From contig SABV01000012.1 of assembly GCA_009928855.1 (NCBI GenBank), forward strand, positions 1 through 32,572: a DNA stretch of 32,572 bases, given 5' to 3'. How positions within the stretch are numbered: position 1 is the first letter of the stretch; every line of letters starts with the position of its first letter. The notes beneath the pieces are model-generated. The model saw only the letters and a program-made list of their open reading frames with translations. It did not search any database and had not been told where the DNA came from. Shown in pieces: positions 1,261-31,212 of this stretch. The stretch is from Erysipelotrichia bacterium. Lineage in GTDB: Bacteria; Muiribacteriota; Ozemobacteria; Ozemobacterales; Ozemobacteraceae. A program made the position numbers and the translations under genes.

Positions 1261-4200
1261 ATGGGCCGGTCGCCCTATCAACTGATAAAAACTACAGATG
1301 AAGCCCTATGGCGAGAAGGACTGGGCGCCCTGTTGATTGATCACAGCCAACAGGCTGCTTCTGCCATTATCTCGGTACTTGATGACAAAGCCTGGAACAA
1401 ACGCGAAGCTGCCGCTAAAACCCTTCTGGAATGGGGATCAGAGATCACAGATCTTATCCAGACTCATCTAAACGACAATAACCTCGACCAGTTCTACTGG
1501 CTGCTGTATGTATTAGGCAAAATTGGCGATGAAAAATCACTCGGCATAGTTCGCCATGCTTTGCGCCACAAAGATTCCGAAATTCGCAGTTATGCGATAA
1601 GGGCGCTTGGGTTTCACAAGCAAATCGAAAATGCCCGCACTCTTTATTCAATGCTGAACGACCCCAACTGGGCCGTAAGAAAACTTGTATTTGAAGAACT
1701 CTTCAACTTTGGCAAAGACATTCTTGACGACCTGCGAAAAATTATCGCCACTCCCTCCAAAACGCCAAACCATAGCATAGTCGCCCTTTTTGTTAAACTG
1801 GGGCAAGACAATATCATCAACGAACTGCAAATTTTTTACCAGAATGGTGAGTTTGCCCTGCGTTATTCGATAGTCTCCTCTCTTGGCGAACTGGGAACCC
1901 CGGCCGCGATAGATTTTTTGATTCACGCACTCTCAGACACATCGTGGGCAATAAGAAAAGCGGCAGCAGAGCAGCTCTTGCGCCTTGGCTCTGCAGCTTT
2001 TGACCGCCTTACGAACGCATTTGGTCGAAGTGACTCACTGGTAAGGCACGAAATAGTCAAACTTCTCTCCAATTTGCTGGGCGAAAAATCGATGCCGCTC
2101 ATACTTCGCCTTTTATCATCACCTGATCAAGAATACCGCCTGATGGCCATCGAAAGTCTTGGCCGACTGAAAAGCGACGAAGCTACGCAGACCCTGCTAA
2201 AATGTCTTGCAGACAGTGACCGAATTGTAGCCGACTATGCCTCGAACTGCCTTGCACAAAAAAACAATCTGAACATGGAACTGCTCTTCAGCAGGCTGAA
2301 AACAGACGATGAAAACCTGCGATTTCAGATTATCAAAATAGTTGGTTCTATTGGCGGTTTAGCGTTAAATCCGATATTAAAGATTCTCCAGGAAGGCAGC
2401 AAGCAAGAGAGACTTTTTTTGCTCGGGGTTCTGCAAAAAATCTCGCCCGACCAGAAGCTGATCGACATTCTCGTAAAACTGCTCGGAGACCCCAACTGGC
2501 CCCTGAGAAACGCAGCAGCCAACTGCCTGGTAAGTTACGGCGAAGATGCGGTCGCAGCCGTTGTAAAAGCTCTCAACGACCCCTCGGACGACATTCGCTT
2601 CTGGTCACGCAAAGCTCTGCTGAAAATTGGCCCGAAAGCAGTTGCGATACTCACCAGAATTCTTGACGAAGCTACAGAGCCATCGCTGATGCCGGATATC
2701 GTTTCTGCGCTGCTGTCGATGAACCATCCAGATGCTGTTCCGGCGGTAATAAAATTTCTCGAAAATAACGACGAGCTGAAAATTCAGTCAGTGTTTTCTT
2801 CTATCCCGAGCATAAGTTCAAAAGATGTGGTTAGCACTATACTGAATCTTCTTACCCACCCAGAAGAAAAAGTGGGCCGATGGCTCTCGCAATTATTAAA
2901 AAAAGCTGACGCAGAATCTTTAAGACGCACAGTTTTTCTTGGTTTCAGCCATTCGAACGATCTGGTGCGCTATTATGTATCAGAAGCCGTCACCAGCTGG
3001 GAATTCCTTTCTGAGGCGGATATAAAGGTGATTGCGCGTCAACTTCAAATAGAGAAAACTCCCAAAAATCTGCGGTCTATTTCTACAATTTTGGCACGCC
3101 ATCCTTATCCATCGTCAATAAAAGCCTTAGAAGAATTTCTTGAGACCTGTCCGCCTGCGCAAATGCTTGATCTAATGCTGCTTATCTCGGCCGAGGGAAA
3201 AGCAGATTTTTTAGTTATGCTCGACGCTCTTCTCAACAGGCGTTCAGAAGTTATTACAATCGCTGACGTAGATAAAGTGGGGCATATTCTCGGGCATATA
3301 TACCATAACAATCCTGAAGGTCTGGTTCAAGGCCTTACTTCGCCAAGCAAAGCATATCGCTTCTGCTGCATTATTGCCCTTGAATCAATCAATGACCGCA
3401 GAATCGCTTTCTCAATAATGGAAACCCTTCTGCCGGATGAAGACATCGACATACTTAAACGTGCCGTTAAAACGCTGGCCAGATATTTCTTTCATGATGA
3501 TTTCAGACTCAAGGGAGCAATTACCGACTTCTTTTTAAATCTCGGCAAACTCATTACCGAACCTCTTTCTGAATATATACAAACTCTTGAAAACGAGATT
3601 GATCGCAAAGCTCTGGTCGACATGGTCGAAAGCGTTGGTGGCACGATTGATCCGGCCTGCATGCACATCAAAGGTGAAGCAAAGGTAGTGCTTTCTGACA
3701 ACCATCTAGACGAAGTGCTCGAAAAAAGACGGCAGGCTCTCGAAGAGCTTGAAAAATACGACCAGCTCATCAAAGTCACTCATACTCTCGATCTTTCGAT
3801 AATGTTTACGGATGTTAAAGGTTATACCGCCTTCAGCTCAAAGGCCTCGCTTTCTGAGGTCATGTCGATGCTCAAGCAGCACGACGAAATACTCAAACCG
3901 GTATTCGAAAAACATGAAGGCGAAATACTCAAAAAGATCGGCGATGCCTTTCTTGTGGTATTCGAGAACCACAACAACTCTATTCTGGCCGCCATCGAGA
4001 TTCAGCGCAAACTGAGTGAGTTCAATCAAAACGTATCAGAAGAAAGAAAACTGGCTATAAGAATCGCCATCAACAGCGGTTCGGTCATAAGAACCGAAAA
4101 TGACGTGCTTGGCGATGCTGTAAATGTGGCTTCGCGTCTGGAAGGCGTTGCCGATGCCTTTGAGATAATAATTTCTGAGCACACCATGCAACGAATCAAC

Positions 4201-4287
4201 CGTCAGATCTTCGATATTGAATCTTATGGTGCACACCAGCTCAAGGGCATCGACAGGCCGGTTAAATCATTCAAGGTCAAATGGTAA
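1261..4287 (+). CDS. HEAT-repeat protein with C-terminal class III nucleotide cyclase domain
   Basis: Protein of 1008 residues with no signal peptide or membrane segment. Residues about 15-790 are a continuous alpha-solenoid of some 20 HEAT/PBS-lyase-type repeats, recognisable from recurring patterns such as DPNWAVRKLVFEELFNFG and DTSWAIRKAAAEQLLRLG. A charged helix at about 813-842 (DEVLEKRRQALEELEKYDQL) resembles the signalling helix that precedes cyclase domains. The cyclase domain (about 845-1008) has the first metal Asp in FTDVKGYT (D851), a Lys before IGDAF (K892, second metal D895), and GDAVNVASRLE with D952, N955 and R959. The Lys/Asp pair is the adenine-selecting combination, so adenylate cyclase activity is the best guess. 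The start ATG has a GAGGAA site 7 bases upstream. The gene converges on the HEAT-PilT gene with a 19-base gap. The solenoid probably binds a partner that controls the cyclase; this is inferred. Confidence 0.88.
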   Translation: MGRSPYQLIKTTDEALWREGLGALLIDHSQQAASAIISVLDDKAWNKREAAAKTLLEWGSEITDLIQTHLNDNNLDQFYWLLYVLGKIGDEKSLGIVRHALRHKDSEIRSYAIRALGFHKQIENARTLYSMLNDPNWAVRKLVFEELFNFGKDILDDLRKIIATPSKTPNHSIVALFVKLGQDNIINELQIFYQNGEFALRYSIVSSLGELGTPAAIDFLIHALSDTSWAIRKAAAEQLLRLGSAAFDRLTNAFGRSDSLVRHEIVKLLSNLLGEKSMPLILRLLSSPDQEYRLMAIESLGRLKSDEATQTLLKCLADSDRIVADYASNCLAQKNNLNMELLFSRLKTDDENLRFQIIKIVGSIGGLALNPILKILQEGSKQERLFLLGVLQKISPDQKLIDILVKLLGDPNWPLRNAAANCLVSYGEDAVAAVVKALNDPSDDIRFWSRKALLKIGPKAVAILTRILDEATEPSLMPDIVSALLSMNHPDAVPAVIKFLENNDELKIQSVFSSIPSISSKDVVSTILNLLTHPEEKVGRWLSQLLKKADAESLRRTVFLGFSHSNDLVRYYVSEAVTSWEFLSEADIKVIARQLQIEKTPKNLRSISTILARHPYPSSIKALEEFLETCPPAQMLDLMLLISAEGKADFLVMLDALLNRRSEVITIADVDKVGHILGHIYHNNPEGLVQGLTSPSKAYRFCCIIALESINDRRIAFSIMETLLPDEDIDILKRAVKTLARYFFHDDFRLKGAITDFFLNLGKLITEPLSEYIQTLENEIDRKALVDMVESVGGTIDPACMHIKGEAKVVLSDNHLDEVLEKRRQALEELEKYDQLIKVTHTLDLSIMFTDVKGYTAFSSKASLSEVMSMLKQHDEILKPVFEKHEGEILKKIGDAFLVVFENHNNSILAAIEIQRKLSEFNQNVSEERKLAIRIAINSGSVIRTENDVLGDAVNVASRLEGVADAFEIIISEHTMQRINRQIFDIESYGAHQLKGIDRPVKSFKVKW

Positions 4288-4306
4288 GCTGACAGACGAT
4301 GGGCAA

Positions 4307-7114
4307 TCAGTGCCCCTTAATCTGAGGCTTGTCGCTTATTACCGGTTTGGCAAGGCCTGGTGGAGTAGTTTGTTTTTCGCTTTTTGCTGGCTCAGAGGTA
4401 GCCGTGCCATAGCTTTTGGCAGTACCCTTACCAACGCGTTCTTCAAGGCGTTTCTGAAAATCTTTTTTGTCTTCGGCGTGTTTAAAGCCATCTTCGTAAG
4501 TAATTTTTTTAGAAACAACCAGATCTTCGAGACATTGATCCATGGTAAGCATGCCATCCTGCCTGCTTGTCTGCATGATAGAGAGAATCTGGTCGGTCTT
4601 ATCTTCTTTGATACAGCGTCGAACAGGAGTTGTGCCAACCAGAACTTCGTAAGCAAGAACGCGACCTGCCGACAAATATGCAGGAACAAGGCGTTGAGAA
4701 ATAATGCCCCTGAGCGTACCAGCGAGCTGCATTCGTATGGTCTGCTGGACATCGCCGGGGAAACTACCCACAATACGATGAATAGATTCGTAAGCATTGA
4801 TTGTATGCAAAGTCGAAAAGACCAGATGCCCTGTTTCTGAGGCTGCAATCGCCAGGCTCATAGTTTCAAGGTCGCGCATTTCACCGACGAGAATAACATC
4901 AGGATCTTCGCGAAGAGCACTTCTTAAGGCATTCGAGAAAGACAGCGTATTAGTGCCCAGCTCGCGCTGACTGACTACGCTGCGCTTGTGAGGATGCACG
5001 AATTCAATCGGATCTTCGATCGTTATTATATGATCGTACCGCAGACGATTAACATGATCAATCATTGCGGCAAGAGTGGTTGACTTACCAGAACCGGTTG
5101 CGCCCGTAACCAGAATCAAACCGGCTTTATGGTGGCATATCTTTTCTACGATCTGCTTGTCGATAGAAAGCTCGTCAAAAGAGGGAACGGTGTTCGGAAT
5201 AATCCTGAACACACCCGCCATACCGTTTTTCTGCATAAATACGTTGACGCGAAAACGGGCGCAATCAGAAATTTCATACGAAAAATCCAGTTCCATGCGC
5301 TCGTTGAACTCGCGCTTCTGGGCATCATTCATGATAGAGAAAAGCAAAAAGCGACTTTTTTCTGGGGTAATGGTCTCAAAAGTAGTTCTGATCAGCTCGC
5401 CATGAATTCTTATGCTGGGAGGCAGGCCGATAGAAATATGCAAATCTGACCCATGCTCTTCGTGCAGGTAATAGAGGAGCTCTTTTAGATCAGTAATGTT
5501 TTCCTTGGCAAATTTTCGCCGCAACACCCTTGTTTCAACGTTTTCAGGGCGTAATGAATCGAGAGTTATTTTTTCGTTTCTAAGCACAGAATCAAGCTGA
5601 TCTTCTGACAGCTTTGAAACAAGCGAAATCATACGATCTTTTTCGACATCGGTCGAACCGTCATAGAGGTTCAGAAAAGAAGAAATACCAAAATAGTCGC
5701 GGCGCTTAAGTATTTCGCGAGACCACCATGAAACATCAGCACTTTTGTCAAAAGAAGCCGCTACAAGATCTTTTAAGAAGGCTTTTCGCGGCTGGCGCGC
5801 CAGGTTTTCAACAATTGTATGCCTGATAGAAAGATCTTTATCATCAAGTTTTAAAAGAAGAAGCCCGGCAATAAGCTCAAACTTTTGCAGTTTTGAAATA
5901 GCTTCGATAGCGCAGGTACGCACCAGCATGTTTTTTGAGTTGTCTATAAGAAAAAGCAACGGCCGCAAAGCTTCTTTAGAGCCAATTACACCGAGCACTT
6001 TGAGCACCTGAATAATCAGGTCTTCGTCTTCGGTATCAAGACATGCCAACAAAGCGTCGACGGCATGAACACCGAGCTGAACAAGAATCTGGTGGGTATA
6101 ATCCTGAATAAAAATCGAATCGTCCTTAAGATATGGCAATAATTCAGGTATTACTAAGGGGTCACGGACCTCACCAAGAGCAGTGAGCAAAAAATATTTG
6201 GTTTCCTGACCGGGATCTCCAAATTTTTCTTTGAATAACTTTACGACTTCGACACCAAGAACACGCCCCAGCAAAATCATCATGCTAAGCTTCATGTTCT
6301 GGCTGGCTGAGGGAAAAATCGCAAGAACATGCGGCACTACTTCACGACCCCAGTTGACGAGAGATTTTATCGCTTCCTGGCGAACAACCATTGTACCATC
6401 GTCGAGAAGCCCCATCAGTGTTTTCATGGAGCTTTCGGTTTTGATTTCTCCGAGGCCGGCGCAGATATACGGTTTATAGGTATCGTTACGGTCTGCTTCA
6501 AGCATGCGCTGAAAAAGCGTAAAAGCCTTCTCTCGTAATATCAACGGTATGATTTTAATGCATTCGTATTTTTGTTGGCTTGAACAGCTCTGAAAATACT
6601 CCTGAATGACCTGGTATATAGAGTCGCCCTGCTCTATCAGGGCTCTTTTTGCCTGTTTTCTTACTATCCAGCTTGGGTCTGAAATTTTATCGAGAAAGGC
6701 CAGAATAACTGTTTTATCAGGATTTTTGGCAAGCGATTCAAGTGCTATTTTGCGTATTTCGTCGTTCTCGCGACTGCTTAAAATAGCAAGTAATTCATCT
6801 TGTCGCACAAAGCCAAGCTCGATAAGAATAAAAAATGCCCAGAACCTGACGGTCATATCAGAAGAAAGTCTGAGAGCCGGGAGCACATCTTTGAGAATGG
6901 TAGGATAATTTATAACAATCTGAACAGCTTTTTTCTGGATACTCTCAAATTTGCTGGCCAGGGCTATTGGCAGAGTAATTGAAATAACTTTTTTCTGTTT
7001 TTCGGAATTCTGCGACTGAAGTAGCGAAGCAAGCTTATCGAGAGCCTGCTCATTATCGAGAAAATCGTGACTTCTAAGCTTATCCTGTAGACTTAAGAGG
7101 ATTTCCTCTATCAT
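4307..7114 (-). CDS. HEAT-repeat protein fused to a PilT-type retraction ATPase
   Basis: Protein of 935 residues. Residues about 1-535 are HEAT repeats (for example DDGTMVVRQEAIKSLVNWG and DPSWIVRKQAKRALIEQG). From about residue 540 there is a full PilT-like ATPase: N-terminal PAS-like domain (GSDLHISIGLPPSIRIHGEL), Walker A GATGSGKST (671-679), Asp box ITIEDPIEF, Walker B VILVGEMRD (740-748) and His box HLVFSTLHT (763-771). A motif related to AIRNLIRE of PilT appears as TPVRRCIKE. Canonical PilT is about 345 residues, so the solenoid is an added N-terminal module. The last 60 residues are a polar Lys/Pro-rich tail. PilT hexamers power type IV pilus retraction at the inner-membrane base; no other pilus gene is in the window. 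An extended -10 promoter lies just upstream. I would not use the name pilT without knowing whether a normal copy exists elsewhere. Confidence 0.9.
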   Translation of the reverse strand: MIEEILLSLQDKLRSHDFLDNEQALDKLASLLQSQNSEKQKKVISITLPIALASKFESIQKKAVQIVINYPTILKDVLPALRLSSDMTVRFWAFFILIELGFVRQDELLAILSSRENDEIRKIALESLAKNPDKTVILAFLDKISDPSWIVRKQAKRALIEQGDSIYQVIQEYFQSCSSQQKYECIKIIPLILREKAFTLFQRMLEADRNDTYKPYICAGLGEIKTESSMKTLMGLLDDGTMVVRQEAIKSLVNWGREVVPHVLAIFPSASQNMKLSMMILLGRVLGVEVVKLFKEKFGDPGQETKYFLLTALGEVRDPLVIPELLPYLKDDSIFIQDYTHQILVQLGVHAVDALLACLDTEDEDLIIQVLKVLGVIGSKEALRPLLFLIDNSKNMLVRTCAIEAISKLQKFELIAGLLLLKLDDKDLSIRHTIVENLARQPRKAFLKDLVAASFDKSADVSWWSREILKRRDYFGISSFLNLYDGSTDVEKDRMISLVSKLSEDQLDSVLRNEKITLDSLRPENVETRVLRRKFAKENITDLKELLYYLHEEHGSDLHISIGLPPSIRIHGELIRTTFETITPEKSRFLLFSIMNDAQKREFNERMELDFSYEISDCARFRVNVFMQKNGMAGVFRIIPNTVPSFDELSIDKQIVEKICHHKAGLILVTGATGSGKSTTLAAMIDHVNRLRYDHIITIEDPIEFVHPHKRSVVSQRELGTNTLSFSNALRSALREDPDVILVGEMRDLETMSLAIAASETGHLVFSTLHTINAYESIHRIVGSFPGDVQQTIRMQLAGTLRGIISQRLVPAYLSAGRVLAYEVLVGTTPVRRCIKEDKTDQILSIMQTSRQDGMLTMDQCLEDLVVSKKITYEDGFKHAEDKKDFQKRLEERVGKGTAKSYGTATSEPAKSEKQTTPPGLAKPVISDKPQIKGH

Positions 7115-7208: not shown

Positions 7209-7913
7209 TCAGAAACTGCTCACCGACAAGCCCGGTAGCTTCAGCAAAGTTTTATTTCCGGTCATAAAGACGGAAGCGCCAGCCACAAGACAGCAGCAAT
7301 AAGACTGCAGCGATAGTTCGCCTGCGGTTTGAGGCAACTCCAATGCGCGCCGAAGAACTTCTTCATTCATAGGTGCCAGCTCAAATATATTCTGCCCCAG
7401 CAAGAAATCGTTAACCGCCTGGTATCTTGAAGGCGTGCGCATGGCGCGCCGCAACAACCAGAACGCCAGAGGAACAGCCAGAACCAGCCCCTCGGCCCGA
7501 CCGGCCATCGCGAGAATCTCTGGAGCGACTGCCCCATCAGACAACCAGCTCAAAATCGGTTCAGCATCAAAAGCAAGTAAACCACCCGAAAAGCCGGCTG
7601 CTTTTTCGGCCCGGTCTATCTCTGGTGCTTTAACATAGCCTTTTAACAGACCTCGCCCGGCAATAAATTTTTCACGCCAGTATGCTGAACGTTCAGAAAA
7701 ACTGTCTGAGTACACCGCTCCACGGCGCTGATTAAGCCACGCTTCAATATCTGTTTCAAGAAATACAGTCTTGCGACCTGCGTGGCGAGCAAGAATTGCG
7801 AATTCCGGGCGATGATTCGGGGAACTCGGAGAAATCCAGGCCTGTACCGTATGCTTTGAAACCCTCAATTTTTCAGCGACTTCCTGCAAAGTAAATAATT
7901 TTTCTCTGGGCAT
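7209..7913 (-). CDS. Excisionase-type helix-turn-helix protein with C-terminal PIN-like domain
   Basis: Protein of 234 residues. Residues about 5-62 (FTLQEVAEKLRVSKHTVQAW ... VFLETDIEAWL) are a MerR/excisionase-type winged HTH for DNA binding. Residues about 110-228 resemble a PIN nuclease fold: a first strand ending in an Asp (LLAFDAEPI, D116), a helical middle, and a final strand VFMTGNKTL matching the family's VTRDKxF. The acidic site is incomplete: N220 stands where the last Asp is expected, and I cannot find the middle acidic residues, so nuclease activity is doubtful. Three consecutive cysteines (C206-C208) are odd. The start has an AGGAG ribosome site 6 to 7 bases upstream and sits directly behind an array of 10-bp repeats, suggesting autoregulation. 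Toxin-antitoxin systems normally put these two domains on separate proteins; no partner gene is adjacent. The HTH is secure, the PIN reading is weaker. Confidence 0.7.
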   Translation of the reverse strand: MPREKLFTLQEVAEKLRVSKHTVQAWISPSSPNHRPEFAILARHAGRKTVFLETDIEAWLNQRRGAVYSDSFSERSAYWREKFIAGRGLLKGYVKAPEIDRAEKAAGFSGGLLAFDAEPILSWLSDGAVAPEILAMAGRAEGLVLAVPLAFWLLRRAMRTPSRYQAVNDFLLGQNIFELAPMNEEVLRRALELPQTAGELSLQSYCCCLVAGASVFMTGNKTLLKLPGLSVSSF

Positions 7914-16201: not shown

Positions 16202-18202
16202 ATGACAGAAAACAATATAGAACAAATGGACGGGGAGAATACCTTTTCTTATAGTTTTGCAAGAACCAGCTTTGAAGAGAGAATAGCTTCCTGGGTGGTA
16301 ATTTTTACTTACGCTTTTATGGCCATAACCCTTTTTAGCATAGTTCTTGAGAAGCTTTATCCTTTCTCGGTCACTCCGCCTGATTTTTTCATGCAATTTC
16401 TGTTTCTGCTGCTCATGACCGGTATTCTTGAAGTAATCAGCATTCAATTTGGCAATGTCAAAGACACATGCATTATCGACTATGCCAAAGGTCTTATCAC
16501 ACTTATAGAACAACGCTTTATGTTTCACAAGATCAGCGTAATTTCATCGTTTGAGCAGATAAAAAGCATAGGCGTCAGTGCCAGAGCCACAAGTCTACAC
16601 CAGGTTTTCTTTTCACAGCACCCCGACAGATTTGCTATTGTTGCCGTAAATTTTCGCAATCAGTTTCTTCACATAACCGATTACAACATGAATCTGGAAG
16701 AAGCCAACACTTTCTGCCAGCAACTGTGTAACCGCCACATGCCGCACGCGCAATTCATTGCAGGAGAAGCTGACACACAACTCATCCTGGATATCCTGAC
16801 TGATGAAATGGTTCCGGCTCCGTGCAGACGATCATGGTCATCACTGGTAGACGCGGCAACCATGCCCGTATTTCAAACCTTCTCTGCACTGCTGATCACT
16901 CTCATCATAATAACAGCCACAATGACGCTGCTCGCCCAGGGCTCCAGACTCGTGTTTAACACCGACCTTCTGCTCTCATATCAGCCTGTTTTGCAGATAT
17001 TTTCAACTCCAGAGCCACGCAAAATAGAAAATAAAGATATTCTTACCCCCCCAGAGGGCCCGCCACCACAAGAACTTCCTCTCGCAACCGTTTCACAGGT
17101 AGATATAATTGTTGACGAATCAGAGTCTCTCGCGCAAACCTCAACCGCAACACTGATAGTTGCCAGCGAAAGCATACAAACGCAAAGTTCTGAAACTGCA
17201 GACCTGAGTTCTTCAACAACAATGCTGGCAGTGCAGACGACAGCAGCAATAATCGCCTCCGAAAGCGCGGCCCAACCTGAAAGTCACGCAACCGAAAGCG
17301 CCGACACCGCAAAAATGGTTGCGATAGCTACCCCAACCGCCCCCGCAACTTCTGCATCTGCATCACTTACCCCAGAAGAAGAATTCAAAAAGATTTTTGA
17401 CAATGCTGAAGTTTTACCCAAAAAAGCTGCAGATATAAAACCAATCACCACAAAATCACCCGAAAACAACAATCCAAAATCACCGCAGATTCATCAGCCT
17501 GTATTTATGCCGTTAACGGCCAAGGTTCCTACGGTCAGCATAGATACAATCTTTTTGCGCAAAAAAAGCAGCAAACCCACAAAAAATATTACTGCAAAGA
17601 TAAGCCCCAAAGCCCCTGACGCCACCCCACTCAGGGCTGTCACTGCAAAAAACACAGCTACAGGCACACCCGCAATATCAGCAAAAACCGTTATACTACC
17701 TAAATCGACTGCATCATTGAAACCAATGCCAACTCCTGTCAAAAAACCAATCGTGCCGGCCAAACCCCAAAAGCAGGTTCCTGTTTGCGACATTTTGCCA
17801 GGTTACGGCATAAATCCCCTCGCATCTCTGGGTGACAGCATGCAAAAAACTATAGACAAACTTGGGCAACCCGTAGCGACTTTTAAAAATGCCGCAGGTC
17901 GACAGGTTGTCTACAGCGGGTTTGCCCTGACCAGCTCTAATAACGATAGCGATAAAATTACAGAAATCATCGTTACCAAGTCTGTTTCGTCAGCTGGCGC
18001 TCTTAAAACGCCTCAAAATCTTATGATTGGCAGTTCGATAGACGAAATAAGAAAACGACTCGGCCCCCCGGTAACGATTGTCGGCTCACCCGGTCTGCAT
18101 TTTCCGACTCTCGGCGTCACCTTTGTGCCATCACCTGCTAAACCAGAAATCATCGGAGCAATAAAACTCTATAAAGCAACCGAAAAGCTGACAACGCAAT
18201 GA
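16202..18202 (+). CDS. Membrane protein with bacterial PH-like domain, long disordered linker and SmpA-like repeats
   Basis: Protein of 666 residues, not matched to a named family. Two hydrophobic helices (about 29-50 and 60-80) are followed by a PH-like segment (about 85-180, IIDYAKGLITLIEQRF ... FAIVAVNFRNQFLHITDY), which resembles bPH domains of YcxB type. A third helix lies at about 223-245. Residues about 265-530 are Ala/Ser/Thr-rich then Lys/Pro-rich and probably unstructured, long enough to cross the periplasm. The C-terminus (about 535-660) contains two related units, LGDSMQKTIDKLGQPVATF and IGSSIDEIRKRLGPPVTIV, each followed by beta strands, like SmpA/OmlA (BamE) repeats. The topology suggests an inner-membrane protein reaching toward the envelope. 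It starts 4 bases after thiN, so it is cotranscribed and probably translationally coupled. Confidence 0.65.
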   Translation: MTENNIEQMDGENTFSYSFARTSFEERIASWVVIFTYAFMAITLFSIVLEKLYPFSVTPPDFFMQFLFLLLMTGILEVISIQFGNVKDTCIIDYAKGLITLIEQRFMFHKISVISSFEQIKSIGVSARATSLHQVFFSQHPDRFAIVAVNFRNQFLHITDYNMNLEEANTFCQQLCNRHMPHAQFIAGEADTQLILDILTDEMVPAPCRRSWSSLVDAATMPVFQTFSALLITLIIITATMTLLAQGSRLVFNTDLLLSYQPVLQIFSTPEPRKIENKDILTPPEGPPPQELPLATVSQVDIIVDESESLAQTSTATLIVASESIQTQSSETADLSSSTTMLAVQTTAAIIASESAAQPESHATESADTAKMVAIATPTAPATSASASLTPEEEFKKIFDNAEVLPKKAADIKPITTKSPENNNPKSPQIHQPVFMPLTAKVPTVSIDTIFLRKKSSKPTKNITAKISPKAPDATPLRAVTAKNTATGTPAISAKTVILPKSTASLKPMPTPVKKPIVPAKPQKQVPVCDILPGYGINPLASLGDSMQKTIDKLGQPVATFKNAAGRQVVYSGFALTSSNNDSDKITEIIVTKSVSSAGALKTPQNLMIGSSIDEIRKRLGPPVTIVGSPGLHFPTLGVTFVPSPAKPEIIGAIKLYKATEKLTTQ

Positions 18203-21354: not shown

Positions 21355-22395
21355 TCAGCGTTTGTAAGAAACTGCGTCTTCTCCGATATCGCCTTTATTA
21401 GTCATCGGGTAAAGAGATCTGATGTTACCGTTCATGGTATACAGCTGCCAGTTGAATTCTTCGCCGTTGATGTTGGCTCTGAAAGTAAGAGCGCCTGGCA
21501 CACTGCCATAGCTGCGTGCGGTTTCGATGGCAATATGACCAAGAGCAAGCAGTGACTGCACAGAATTGCAATTGGCAAAGCCACCTTTGGGCTTATTGGC
21601 AGACTTCATCGGGCCATCGCCATCGGGGTCCCAGGAGAAGCTGCCAGTGTAGATTCTCGGATTACCGATGCCAGCAACAGCAGTTTTGACCTGAGCGCAA
21701 CCATTGCGTTCATCGTCATAAAATTTGTACCACCAGTGGTAACCGCTGACTTTGCTGCCATCAACTTCGCCGGCAACAACATGCTCGAAACCACGACCAG
21801 AACCGAACCAGTTCTTTTTAAGATCTTCGATACTAGTATCAGTAGATTTAAGGGCATGAAGAATAACCGGATCATTTTTTATAGAATCAAGAAAAGCATC
21901 TATATCATTGCTGAGAGCAGAAGCATCATTGGTGCCATTTTTAGGATTGAATTTTTCGCAAAGTTTTATGGTTTCTGTATAACTGTGCGGAATGCTGCCG
22001 TCATAATCATTAAAAAGCATACCACGGCGATAATTTTCGCTTTTGGTAACCTTGAGGGCATCACGATCAAGTTTTACGATCGAATTTGCCACTTCGGCAA
22101 TTTTTTGCCTGATTTCGCTGACATTTCGACTTGAACCATAAGCGGAATAATATATCTGACTGCCGTTATTAGCGATAGCCTCTGCCCGCGAAACAGCACC
22201 TTTAAAATCTTCGTCTGATTCGATAAGACCGGCAGCTATGCTGTTTTCAAGGGTCCGGCGCAACTCGAGGTCTTGAATGGCACCAAGCTGGTCATGAAAA
22301 TAACTGACACGCTCAGAACTGGCCATCAGACCGGGTGAAAAAAGAGGGGTTAAAAAACCGGATACAAGAAAAACAAATGGAATTAGTCTACGCAT
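21355..22395 (-). CDS. Exported EndoU-like (XendoU-fold) endoribonuclease
   Basis: Protein of 346 residues with an N-terminal signal peptide (residues 1-25, IPFVFLVSGFLTPLFSPGLM). The C-terminal half matches EndoU/XendoU: FEHVVAGE (204-210, with E204, H205, E210), KVSGYHWWYKFY (H220 as second catalytic His), GSFSWDPDGDGPMKSANKPKGGF (K268 or K270 as the candidate catalytic Lys) and a closing NWQLYTMNGNIRSLYPM that fits the family's last strands. EndoU enzymes cut RNA after uridines, often with Mn2+, leaving 2',3'-cyclic phosphate ends. The N-terminal region (26-190) is helical and unassigned. In bacteria EndoU domains usually sit at the end of large toxin proteins; this is a stand-alone exported enzyme without an obvious immunity gene. 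Start: AGGGAGCAG lies 4 to 12 bases upstream. Catalytic assignment is by pattern. Confidence 0.75.
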   Translation of the reverse strand: MRRLIPFVFLVSGFLTPLFSPGLMASSERVSYFHDQLGAIQDLELRRTLENSIAAGLIESDEDFKGAVSRAEAIANNGSQIYYSAYGSSRNVSEIRQKIAEVANSIVKLDRDALKVTKSENYRRGMLFNDYDGSIPHSYTETIKLCEKFNPKNGTNDASALSNDIDAFLDSIKNDPVILHALKSTDTSIEDLKKNWFGSGRGFEHVVAGEVDGSKVSGYHWWYKFYDDERNGCAQVKTAVAGIGNPRIYTGSFSWDPDGDGPMKSANKPKGGFANCNSVQSLLALGHIAIETARSYGSVPGALTFRANINGEEFNWQLYTMNGNIRSLYPMTNKGDIGEDAVSYKR

Positions 22396-29940: not shown

Positions 29941-30888
29941 TCAGCGAGCTGCATCGGCAGCAGATATTGAAACCCGGTATAACTCGTATGCCTGACGATA
30001 GGCATGCAAACTGGCCTTTTTATCGGCATCGCTCGCATCTGGCGAAGTAATCATATCAGTGTAATCTCTATATGCTTTTTCATAGGCAGATCTGGCATCT
30101 GATGCATTGGAAACCGACAAAAGCAGCGGTGTTGCAGAAGCAACAAGATCTTCTGACTTATGAGAAAGCGGATCTTCTATTTTTACCAGTGTTACTTCAG
30201 GCTGTTCTTCAACCTCCTGGTCGTCGCTGGTGGCATAAGCCTCATAGCCCTTTTTCAGCACTTTGCGCCCGATCCAGCGGCCAATACCGCCACCAATTGC
30301 TTTTCCAAGCTTACTACCAAGATAAGCCACTGACATAGTACCGATAATTGGCAGTGCAATCGGCCCGCAACCGGCCAGCAAGGCAATGCCGGCCGCGGCA
30401 CCCAGACTACCGCCAACCAGATCGCCAATAACGGCGCCAATCGATTCTGCGGTCAAAGAAGCTTTATTTACAGTTTTAACCGCATCTACAACCGCAGACA
30501 AATCAACTTTCCGCCCATGATTCAGCTTCCATTGCGCAAGCAGCTCACCAACCGCTTTGGCAAATGTTTTGGTAACAATATCGCCTATCCTGAAACCAAT
30601 CATGGCGCCCATTCCCGCTGCGACTGGGCCACCTACTGCAGCGCCAAGAACATACCCGGCAGCGGCACCAATCGCCCCACCGGCTTTTCCGGCCACAAAA
30701 CCGGCCACTTTGCCGGCAGCCTTGGTTATCCACCACTCGCGCTGCTGCAATTCATCTGCTTTTTTTTGGGTTTTAAGCTTAAGTTTATCAAACAGCGAAA
30801 GCTCTGCCGCATCGACAAAAGGTGCGAACAGCAGGCACAACACCAGCAGCAGGCTTATATTAAACGCCCGTCTTTGCGCAAATTGCAT
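29941..30888 (-). CDS. Secreted or outer-membrane glycine-zipper protein
   Basis: Protein of 315 residues. The signal peptide (about 1-27, ISLLLVLCLLFAPFVDA) is followed by two glycine-zipper regions with GxxxG spacing: GKVAGFVAGKAGGAIGAAAGYVLGAAVGG and the segment IGDLVGGSLGAAAGIALLAGCG through LGSKLGKAIGGGIGRWIG. Such segments pack as membrane hairpins or form oligomeric pores. The C-terminus (about 230-315) is polar and helical (SAYEKAYRDYTDMITSPD). The longer frame to 31005 is not used: a sigma70 promoter lies at 30926-30954 and GGAG is 7 to 10 bases before the ATG at 30888. Function is not known; it may form an envelope pore or be a secreted structural protein. Seven T bases directly follow the stop on the minus strand. 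Confidence 0.75.
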   Translation of the reverse strand: MQFAQRRAFNISLLLVLCLLFAPFVDAAELSLFDKLKLKTQKKADELQQREWWITKAAGKVAGFVAGKAGGAIGAAAGYVLGAAVGGPVAAGMGAMIGFRIGDIVTKTFAKAVGELLAQWKLNHGRKVDLSAVVDAVKTVNKASLTAESIGAVIGDLVGGSLGAAAGIALLAGCGPIALPIIGTMSVAYLGSKLGKAIGGGIGRWIGRKVLKKGYEAYATSDDQEVEEQPEVTLVKIEDPLSHKSEDLVASATPLLLSVSNASDARSAYEKAYRDYTDMITSPDASDADKKASLHAYRQAYELYRVSISAADAAR

Positions 30889-30925
30889 ACAAAACTCCAG
30901 CTTAAAAGCATAGACTATATTTTGA

Positions 30926-30954
30926 ATTATAAGAAAAATCCCCCTGCTCCGCAA
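30926..30954 (-). promoter_or_regulatory. Sigma70-type promoter of the glycine-zipper gene
   Basis: On the minus strand TTGCGG (30949-30954) and a perfect TATAAT (30926-30931) are 17 bases apart, 38 bases upstream of the ATG at 30888. It rules out the longer in-frame start at 31005. Confidence 0.7.
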
Positions 30955-31212
30955 TGCAGCTTCAACAAAAAAGACGGCAAAGTTAATTGCAAGGTCACAA
31001 ATCATTCACAACACCATTGCTAGAGTTCTACAGTGTAAAAGTTTTAATGCTGAAAATAAACGCGAAATACGATAAGAGTTACTCAGCGCTAACTGTGAAG
31101 GGTTACAGCAAACCGTGAGAAAAAAAATGGTAAAGATGAAAGCGCACAATAAAGACATGAAAAACAGTGAAATGTTTTTATTCTATGCGAAGATCTAAAT
31201 GAGGTTCTGCAT
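30955..31212. other. Intergenic region without a recognised gene
   Basis: About 260 AT-rich bases between the promoter of the glycine-zipper gene and the terminator of the adhesin gene. A 23-codon plus-strand frame near 31126 has no ribosome site. I see no tRNA-like or riboswitch-like structure. Confidence 0.5.

Follow-up and report, generated by a model that had tools for sequence, protein, structure and literature searches.

The 32,572-nt window, that is, the whole stretch of DNA analysed here (contig C753 of a 4.47-Mb genome bin, genome label G000), encodes a PilT-family motor fused to a long HEAT solenoid and, next to it, a class III cyclase with a HEAT solenoid of its own. On balance, we regard the HEAT-PilT as a pilus retraction-type ATPase carrying a docking-arm solenoid, the HEAT-cyclase as a separate protein, and their adjacency as inherited. 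The association between HEAT solenoids and PilT is the best-supported functional association here, and the cyclase is not involved in it. The host belongs to the Ozemobacteraceae, denoted family f1 throughout, in the uncultured phylum Candidatus Riflebacteria. According to the ORF list, both genes are intact and convergent, and no terminator-like site was found when the gap between their stop codons was examined. The original prediction of a convergent HEAT-cyclase/HEAT-PilT pair was confirmed by ORFs, Pfam, TIGR01420 and AlphaFold2, as follows.

1261..4287, + strand: HEAT-cyclase, 1008 aa (ORF; Pfam HEAT_2 and Guanylate_cyc; 22-member ortholog alignment)
1261..3645, + strand: cyclase HEAT solenoid, aa 1-795, about 24 repeats (Pfam; AlphaFold2 helices)
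3697..3777, + strand: 27-residue helix, aa 813-839, between solenoid and cyclase domain (AlphaFold2; invariant residues)
3787..4284, + strand: class III cyclase homology domain, aa 843-1008, with complete active site (Pfam, alignment, Foldseek)
4288..4306: intergenic gap of 19 nt between the convergent stops (ORF coordinates)
4307..7114, - strand: HEAT-PilT, 935 aa (ORF, Pfam, TIGR01420, ortholog alignment)
5570..7114, - strand: PilT HEAT solenoid, aa 1-515, about 15 repeats (AlphaFold2 helices, family identity)
5489..5569, - strand: linker, aa 516-542, of low pLDDT yet conserved (AlphaFold2, family identity)
4445..5488, - strand: complete PilT/PilU-family retraction ATPase, aa 543-890 (TIGR01420, PDB matches, motifs)
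4310..4444, - strand: variable C-terminal tail, aa 891-935, of low pLDDT (family identity, AlphaFold2)
7209..7913, - strand: HTH_17 protein, encoded upstream of HEAT-PilT in the same direction (Pfam, synteny)

HEAT-PilT matched HEAT_2 (1e-29) and T2SSE (2e-47, aa 606-818) in Pfam, and the NCBIfam model TIGR01420 (pilT_fam) aligned to aa 543-885 over profile positions 2-343 of 343, scoring 462 bits against a cut-off of 319. AlphaFold2 modelled the solenoid as continuously all-helical from aa 2 to 511 with pLDDT of about 90, and the motor as a separate domain. An extension of 540 residues had been described as non-standard for PilT; this held, the HEAT repeats and the linker together filling aa 1-542 and the solved PilT chains having no such arm. 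Within the family, the arm is 65-87% identical (50% in G014) and the linker 67-100% (G014 again excepted), and identity of the C-terminal tail is 27-56%. The Walker A (TGATGSGKST), Asp box (IITIEDPIEF), Walker B (EDPDVILVGEMRD) and His box (TGHLVFSTLHT) motifs are all canonical. The position of the retraction motif AIRNLIRE reads PVRRCIKE, which is a partial conservation and not an identity. The best PDB matches were the PilTs 3jvu, 2ewv and 6ojx, and the fold search returned crystal and cryo-EM structures of PilT.

As for the surroundings, the cyclase side of the pair is occupied by a zinc-ribbon protein and a SpoU-type methyltransferase, and the PilT side by the HTH_17 protein followed by rpsB-tsf-pyrH-frr-uppS-cdsA-rseP (Pfam). 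No pilus genes were found among the window neighbours on either flank; elsewhere the genome holds seven PilM_2 matches, together with PilB-PilT pairs on contigs C255 and C680. Such a position, outside a pilus operon and among housekeeping neighbours, is what might be expected if HEAT-PilT were a repurposed PilT-family ATPase serving, for example, secretion, DNA uptake or regulation instead of pilus retraction. The genome also encodes roughly eight further PilT-family motors, two of which neighbour PilB-type genes, and this would be compatible with such a role. Nevertheless, we consider this unlikely: TIGR01420 is matched over its full length, the best structural matches are pilus retraction PilTs, and all ATPase motifs are retained. 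Moreover, genes for retraction ATPases often lie apart from the rest of the pilus genes, which takes weight from the argument of position.

Several other features of the window were recorded. The HTH_17 protein has a C-terminal domain of about 170 aa without family assignment, and its gene lies between HEAT-PilT and rpsB in part of f1 and was not detected in the remaining genera. A homolog of XendoU-type endoribonucleases is encoded at 21355-22395 (- strand), and in genus g11 a 45% relative is located directly upstream of HEAT-cyclase. Two window ORFs gave no Pfam match (16202-18202, + strand, 666 aa; 29941-31005, - strand, 354 aa).

HEAT-cyclase matched HEAT_2 (3e-66) and Guanylate_cyc (1e-23, aa 843-998) in Pfam, with 84.4 bits to PF00211 and thus above the cut-off of 21.9. 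Using the ortholog alignment, AlphaFold2 modelled its solenoid as continuously all-helical from aa 5 to 791 (pLDDT mostly 75-90) and the catalytic domain as separate from it. The pTM values were 0.49 for HEAT-PilT and 0.45 for HEAT-cyclase, and the placement of arm against effector is not fixed by either model. The catalytic domain aligned with the solved cyclases 3mr7 and Ma1120, and Foldseek gave a TM score of 0.90 to the adenylyl cyclase Ma1120 (4wp8). Residues D851, D895, K892, D948, N955 and R959 are invariant in 22/22 orthologs; these are the two metal-binding Asp, the Lys/Asp adenine pair (K892/D948) and the Asn/Arg transition-state pair. The protein is predicted to be an active cyclase, and of adenylate type as far as specificity can be judged from the K892/D948 pair only. 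The helix region also contains a series of residues invariant in the 22 orthologs (S812, D813, L816, D817, V819, L820, R823, A826, Y833, I837, H841 and T842), and the helix at aa 813-839 is a probable signalling or dimer helix. When six other cyclase ORFs of the phylum were examined, which is not a full census, none had the same order of arm and C-terminal cyclase; one of them has an N-terminal cyclase and a weak signal for HEAT.

The two arms were then compared by profile. With the cyclase arm as profile, the partner PilT scored 108 bits, versus 270, 217 and 197 bits for three other stand-alone HEAT proteins of the genome; the HEAT-PilT of family f7 scored 191 bits. With the PilT-arm profile, two of those stand-alone proteins gave 170 and 137 bits and the cyclase 137 bits. 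Because the partner arm is outranked by other HEAT proteins, there is no sign of a recent common origin, and this ranking ruled out a specific duplication of the arm between the two genes. Although hhalign paired both arms as HEAT at 99%, we would expect likewise of any two HEAT arrays. Both arms are HEAT solenoids, as first described, but a specific kinship between them was not supported. Among the HEAT proteins of the genome, a 1032-aa solenoid protein (L094:2613-5711, contig C656) has a C-terminus resembling, by eye, a CheR-type methyltransferase.

To follow the pair across the phylum, 40 genomes were sampled, 24 in family f1 and 16 outside it. HEAT-cyclase is present in 23/24 of the f1 genomes and in 0/16 of the others, and HEAT-PilT orthologs occur in 22/24; G010 has a paralog only, and G037 (69% complete) has neither ortholog. 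Since both proteins have conserved orthologs throughout the family, with identities mostly of 50-88%, the pair is neither a product of chance nor a misassembly. After leaving out G004 and G037, where the junction is not judgeable, the two genes were neighbours in 14 of 22 f1 genomes and apart in 8 (G008, G010, G011, G013, G014, G015, G017 and G020). The flanking junctions, read by hand like that of the pair from the synteny table and contig ends, were better kept: cyclase with zinc-ribbon/SpoU in 18/21 and PilT with HTH_17/rpsB in 16/18, so that of the three junctions the cyclase-PilT one is kept least often. In genomes with a split pair, the two genes usually stay beside their respective housekeeping neighbours. 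Linked genomes are found in each of the two main groups of the cyclase tree, which makes linkage the probable ancestral condition of the family, followed by several losses.

Two genomic arrangements deserve separate description. An inversion of just the PilT gene in genus g11 has given a tandem same-strand pair with gaps of about 50 nt. In G010, which yielded no HEAT-PilT ortholog, HEAT-cyclase has a HEAT-PilT paralog of 38% identity at a distance of about 2.4 kb (L103:1318-9700), which would be odd under purely chance linkage. Meanwhile, class III cyclases are numerous in these bacteria, with 27 matches in the window's own genome and up to 67 in f1 relatives; the smallest f1 set has 8 matches (G014), HEAT-cyclase among them. 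Two cyclases of the own genome lie within 5 kb of a T2SSE-family gene, compared with about 1.4 expected by our own estimate (27 cyclases, about 21 T2SSE-family places).

These data bear on the idea of a single unit in which the solenoids of HEAT-cyclase and HEAT-PilT share a partner and retraction is controlled by local cAMP. The frequent linkage in both major clades, the near-universal presence of both genes in f1, the g11 tandem and the G010 paralog are in its favour, as are the cyclic-nucleotide-binding PilTs of the same genomes (see below), which make control of pili by cAMP plausible. However, the arms lack specific kinship, the pair junction is less conserved than both flanks, convergent genes can have no common transcript, families f5, f7 and f8 have HEAT-PilT without this cyclase, and the number of own-genome cyclases close to a T2SSE-family gene is near expectation. 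We thus hold a single unit to be quite unlikely, although a direct cyclase-PilT complex is possible. None of the three circumstances that would speak most strongly against the original prediction was found (the genes are often linked, both arms are HEAT, and pilus genes are present in the genome); linkage beyond local synteny and a dedicated signalling and retraction unit were not supported. Linkage as proof of joint function was rejected by comparison with the flanking junctions, and the adjacency looks like inherited synteny, which gives no evidence of a complex and adds little.

An N-terminal cNMP_binding domain, accompanied by MshEN, is found in two more PilT paralogs:

L085:1527-3335, - strand: cNMP-PilT of the first type, phosphate cassette intact
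L086:1852-3687, + strand: cNMP-PilT of the second type, phosphate cassette degenerate

The GE...R[ST]A phosphate cassette of the first type is kept in 11 f1 genomes, and the cassette arginine is lost in the second type, seen in G000. The own genome has 12 cNMP_binding matches in all. If cAMP controls pili here, these proteins would, judging from their sequences, be the direct candidates and better ones than the cyclase-PilT adjacency. With such fusions, whether cyclic nucleotides control retraction directly becomes a question that purified protein can answer.

Four families of the phylum (f1, f5, f7 and f8) have full-length HEAT-PilTs, which are about 810-1170 aa long. In the motor tree, their motors fall in at least two separate places; a single clade of HEAT motors was rejected (AU p = 2e-5, or p = 0.003 with long branches removed), while groups I and II may be one (AU p = 0.51). 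At least three changes of the HEAT label, either gains or losses, are forced on the starred branches of that tree. This polyphyly may reflect repeated gain or, alternatively, repeated loss. Besides these fusions, G000 contains two operons with the order PilT, PilT', HEAT/TPR, in which the last junction overlaps by 4 nt:

L087:5062-9338 (contig C338): PilT-PilT'-HEAT/TPR operon 1
L088:10826-15311 (contig C571): PilT-PilT'-HEAT/TPR operon 2

Both operons are conserved in f1. PilT' is followed by HEAT/TPR on the same strand in 16/16 determinable genomes for the first operon and 17/17 for the second (33/33 in total). This order suggests co-expression of PilT' and HEAT/TPR, not binding. PilT' of both operons has a weakened Walker A (TGPANSGKTH and AGPACSGKTM). 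The HEAT/TPR proteins reach only about 43 bits to the fused arm, without specific similarity, so a common function would be one by analogy only. Taken together, fusions and operons show PilT accompanied by a solenoid, whether in cis or in trans.

In a wider reading, the pilus motors of Riflebacteria would each have a separate task, set by a module at the N-terminus or in a partner protein (HEAT arm, HEAT/TPR subunit or cyclic-nucleotide-binding domain), with HEAT-PilT and HEAT-cyclase on one platform where cAMP, made beside cAMP-gated PilTs, picks the motor that retracts; we give it little credence. It is highly unlikely that the arm is inert or of low specificity and owes its spread to recombination between the many HEAT genes of the phylum, because, for all the abundance of HEAT proteins in the genome and the polyphyly of the HEAT motors, the arm is well conserved over most of the family, the linker is nearly as conserved as the motor, and HEAT recurs with PilT both in cis and in trans.

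The docking-arm reading of HEAT-PilT can be put as follows. PilT hexamers act at the pilus base, and the motor of HEAT-PilT would form the usual hexamer. With its six solenoids on conserved linkers, the hexamer may then attach to a partner, either at the base of the pilus or at some polar or cytoskeletal site; such attachment could select which pilus machine the motor joins, or gate the motor. HEAT-PilT would be one of several solenoid-equipped PilTs of Riflebacteria, fused in some and served by HEAT/TPR in trans in two operons. HEAT-cyclase would act separately as an adenylate cyclase of the cytosol; its solenoid would sense a partner protein and relay the binding via the invariant helix (aa 813-839) to the catalytic dimer. 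We infer both the docking and the sensing role from the anatomy of the proteins. There is, to our knowledge, no settled account of how PilT is recruited to the pilus base or gated there; a phylum that repeatedly places a docking solenoid on or beside PilT provides defined handles for finding the docking partner.

Outside the phylum, tblastn of a plasmid collection returned no place covering 80% of either protein, and a pattern scan of genome contigs, which finds close relatives only, returned only loci matching f1 bins. In the open-access literature searched, neither HEAT-PilT nor a cyclase with a HEAT arm was described for this phylum, and no paper dealt with the PilT-PilT'-HEAT/TPR operons or the recurrence of HEAT arms. 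PilT and class III cyclases are known; with respect to that literature, the arms, their repeated occurrence in the phylum and the operons appear to be new.

Compared with known systems, both arms resemble AlphaRep and bacterial HEAT and PBS-lyase repeats in repeat sequence and fold, a generic similarity only. HEAT-cyclase has the catalytic fold and catalytic residues of class III nucleotidyl cyclases (Ma1120 4wp8, CyaB 3r5g, 3mr7), but it bears a HEAT regulatory arm of about 800 residues, which the matched solved chains (171-394 residues) lack. In concept HEAT-PilT resembles MshE/PilB-type pilus ATPases, in which a regulatory domain (MshEN) precedes the motor. MshEN binds c-di-GMP; Pfam found this domain in other ATPases of the genome and not in HEAT-PilT, which instead has a solenoid of the protein-binding type. 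Solved PilT/PilU proteins (TIGR01420; 3jvu, 2ewv, 6ojx, 9n32) have the complete motor and its motifs in common with HEAT-PilT, the fold search giving about 40-45% identity over the motor. Whereas their matched chains of 261-402 residues carry no arm, HEAT-PilT adds a 515-residue HEAT solenoid and a conserved linker.
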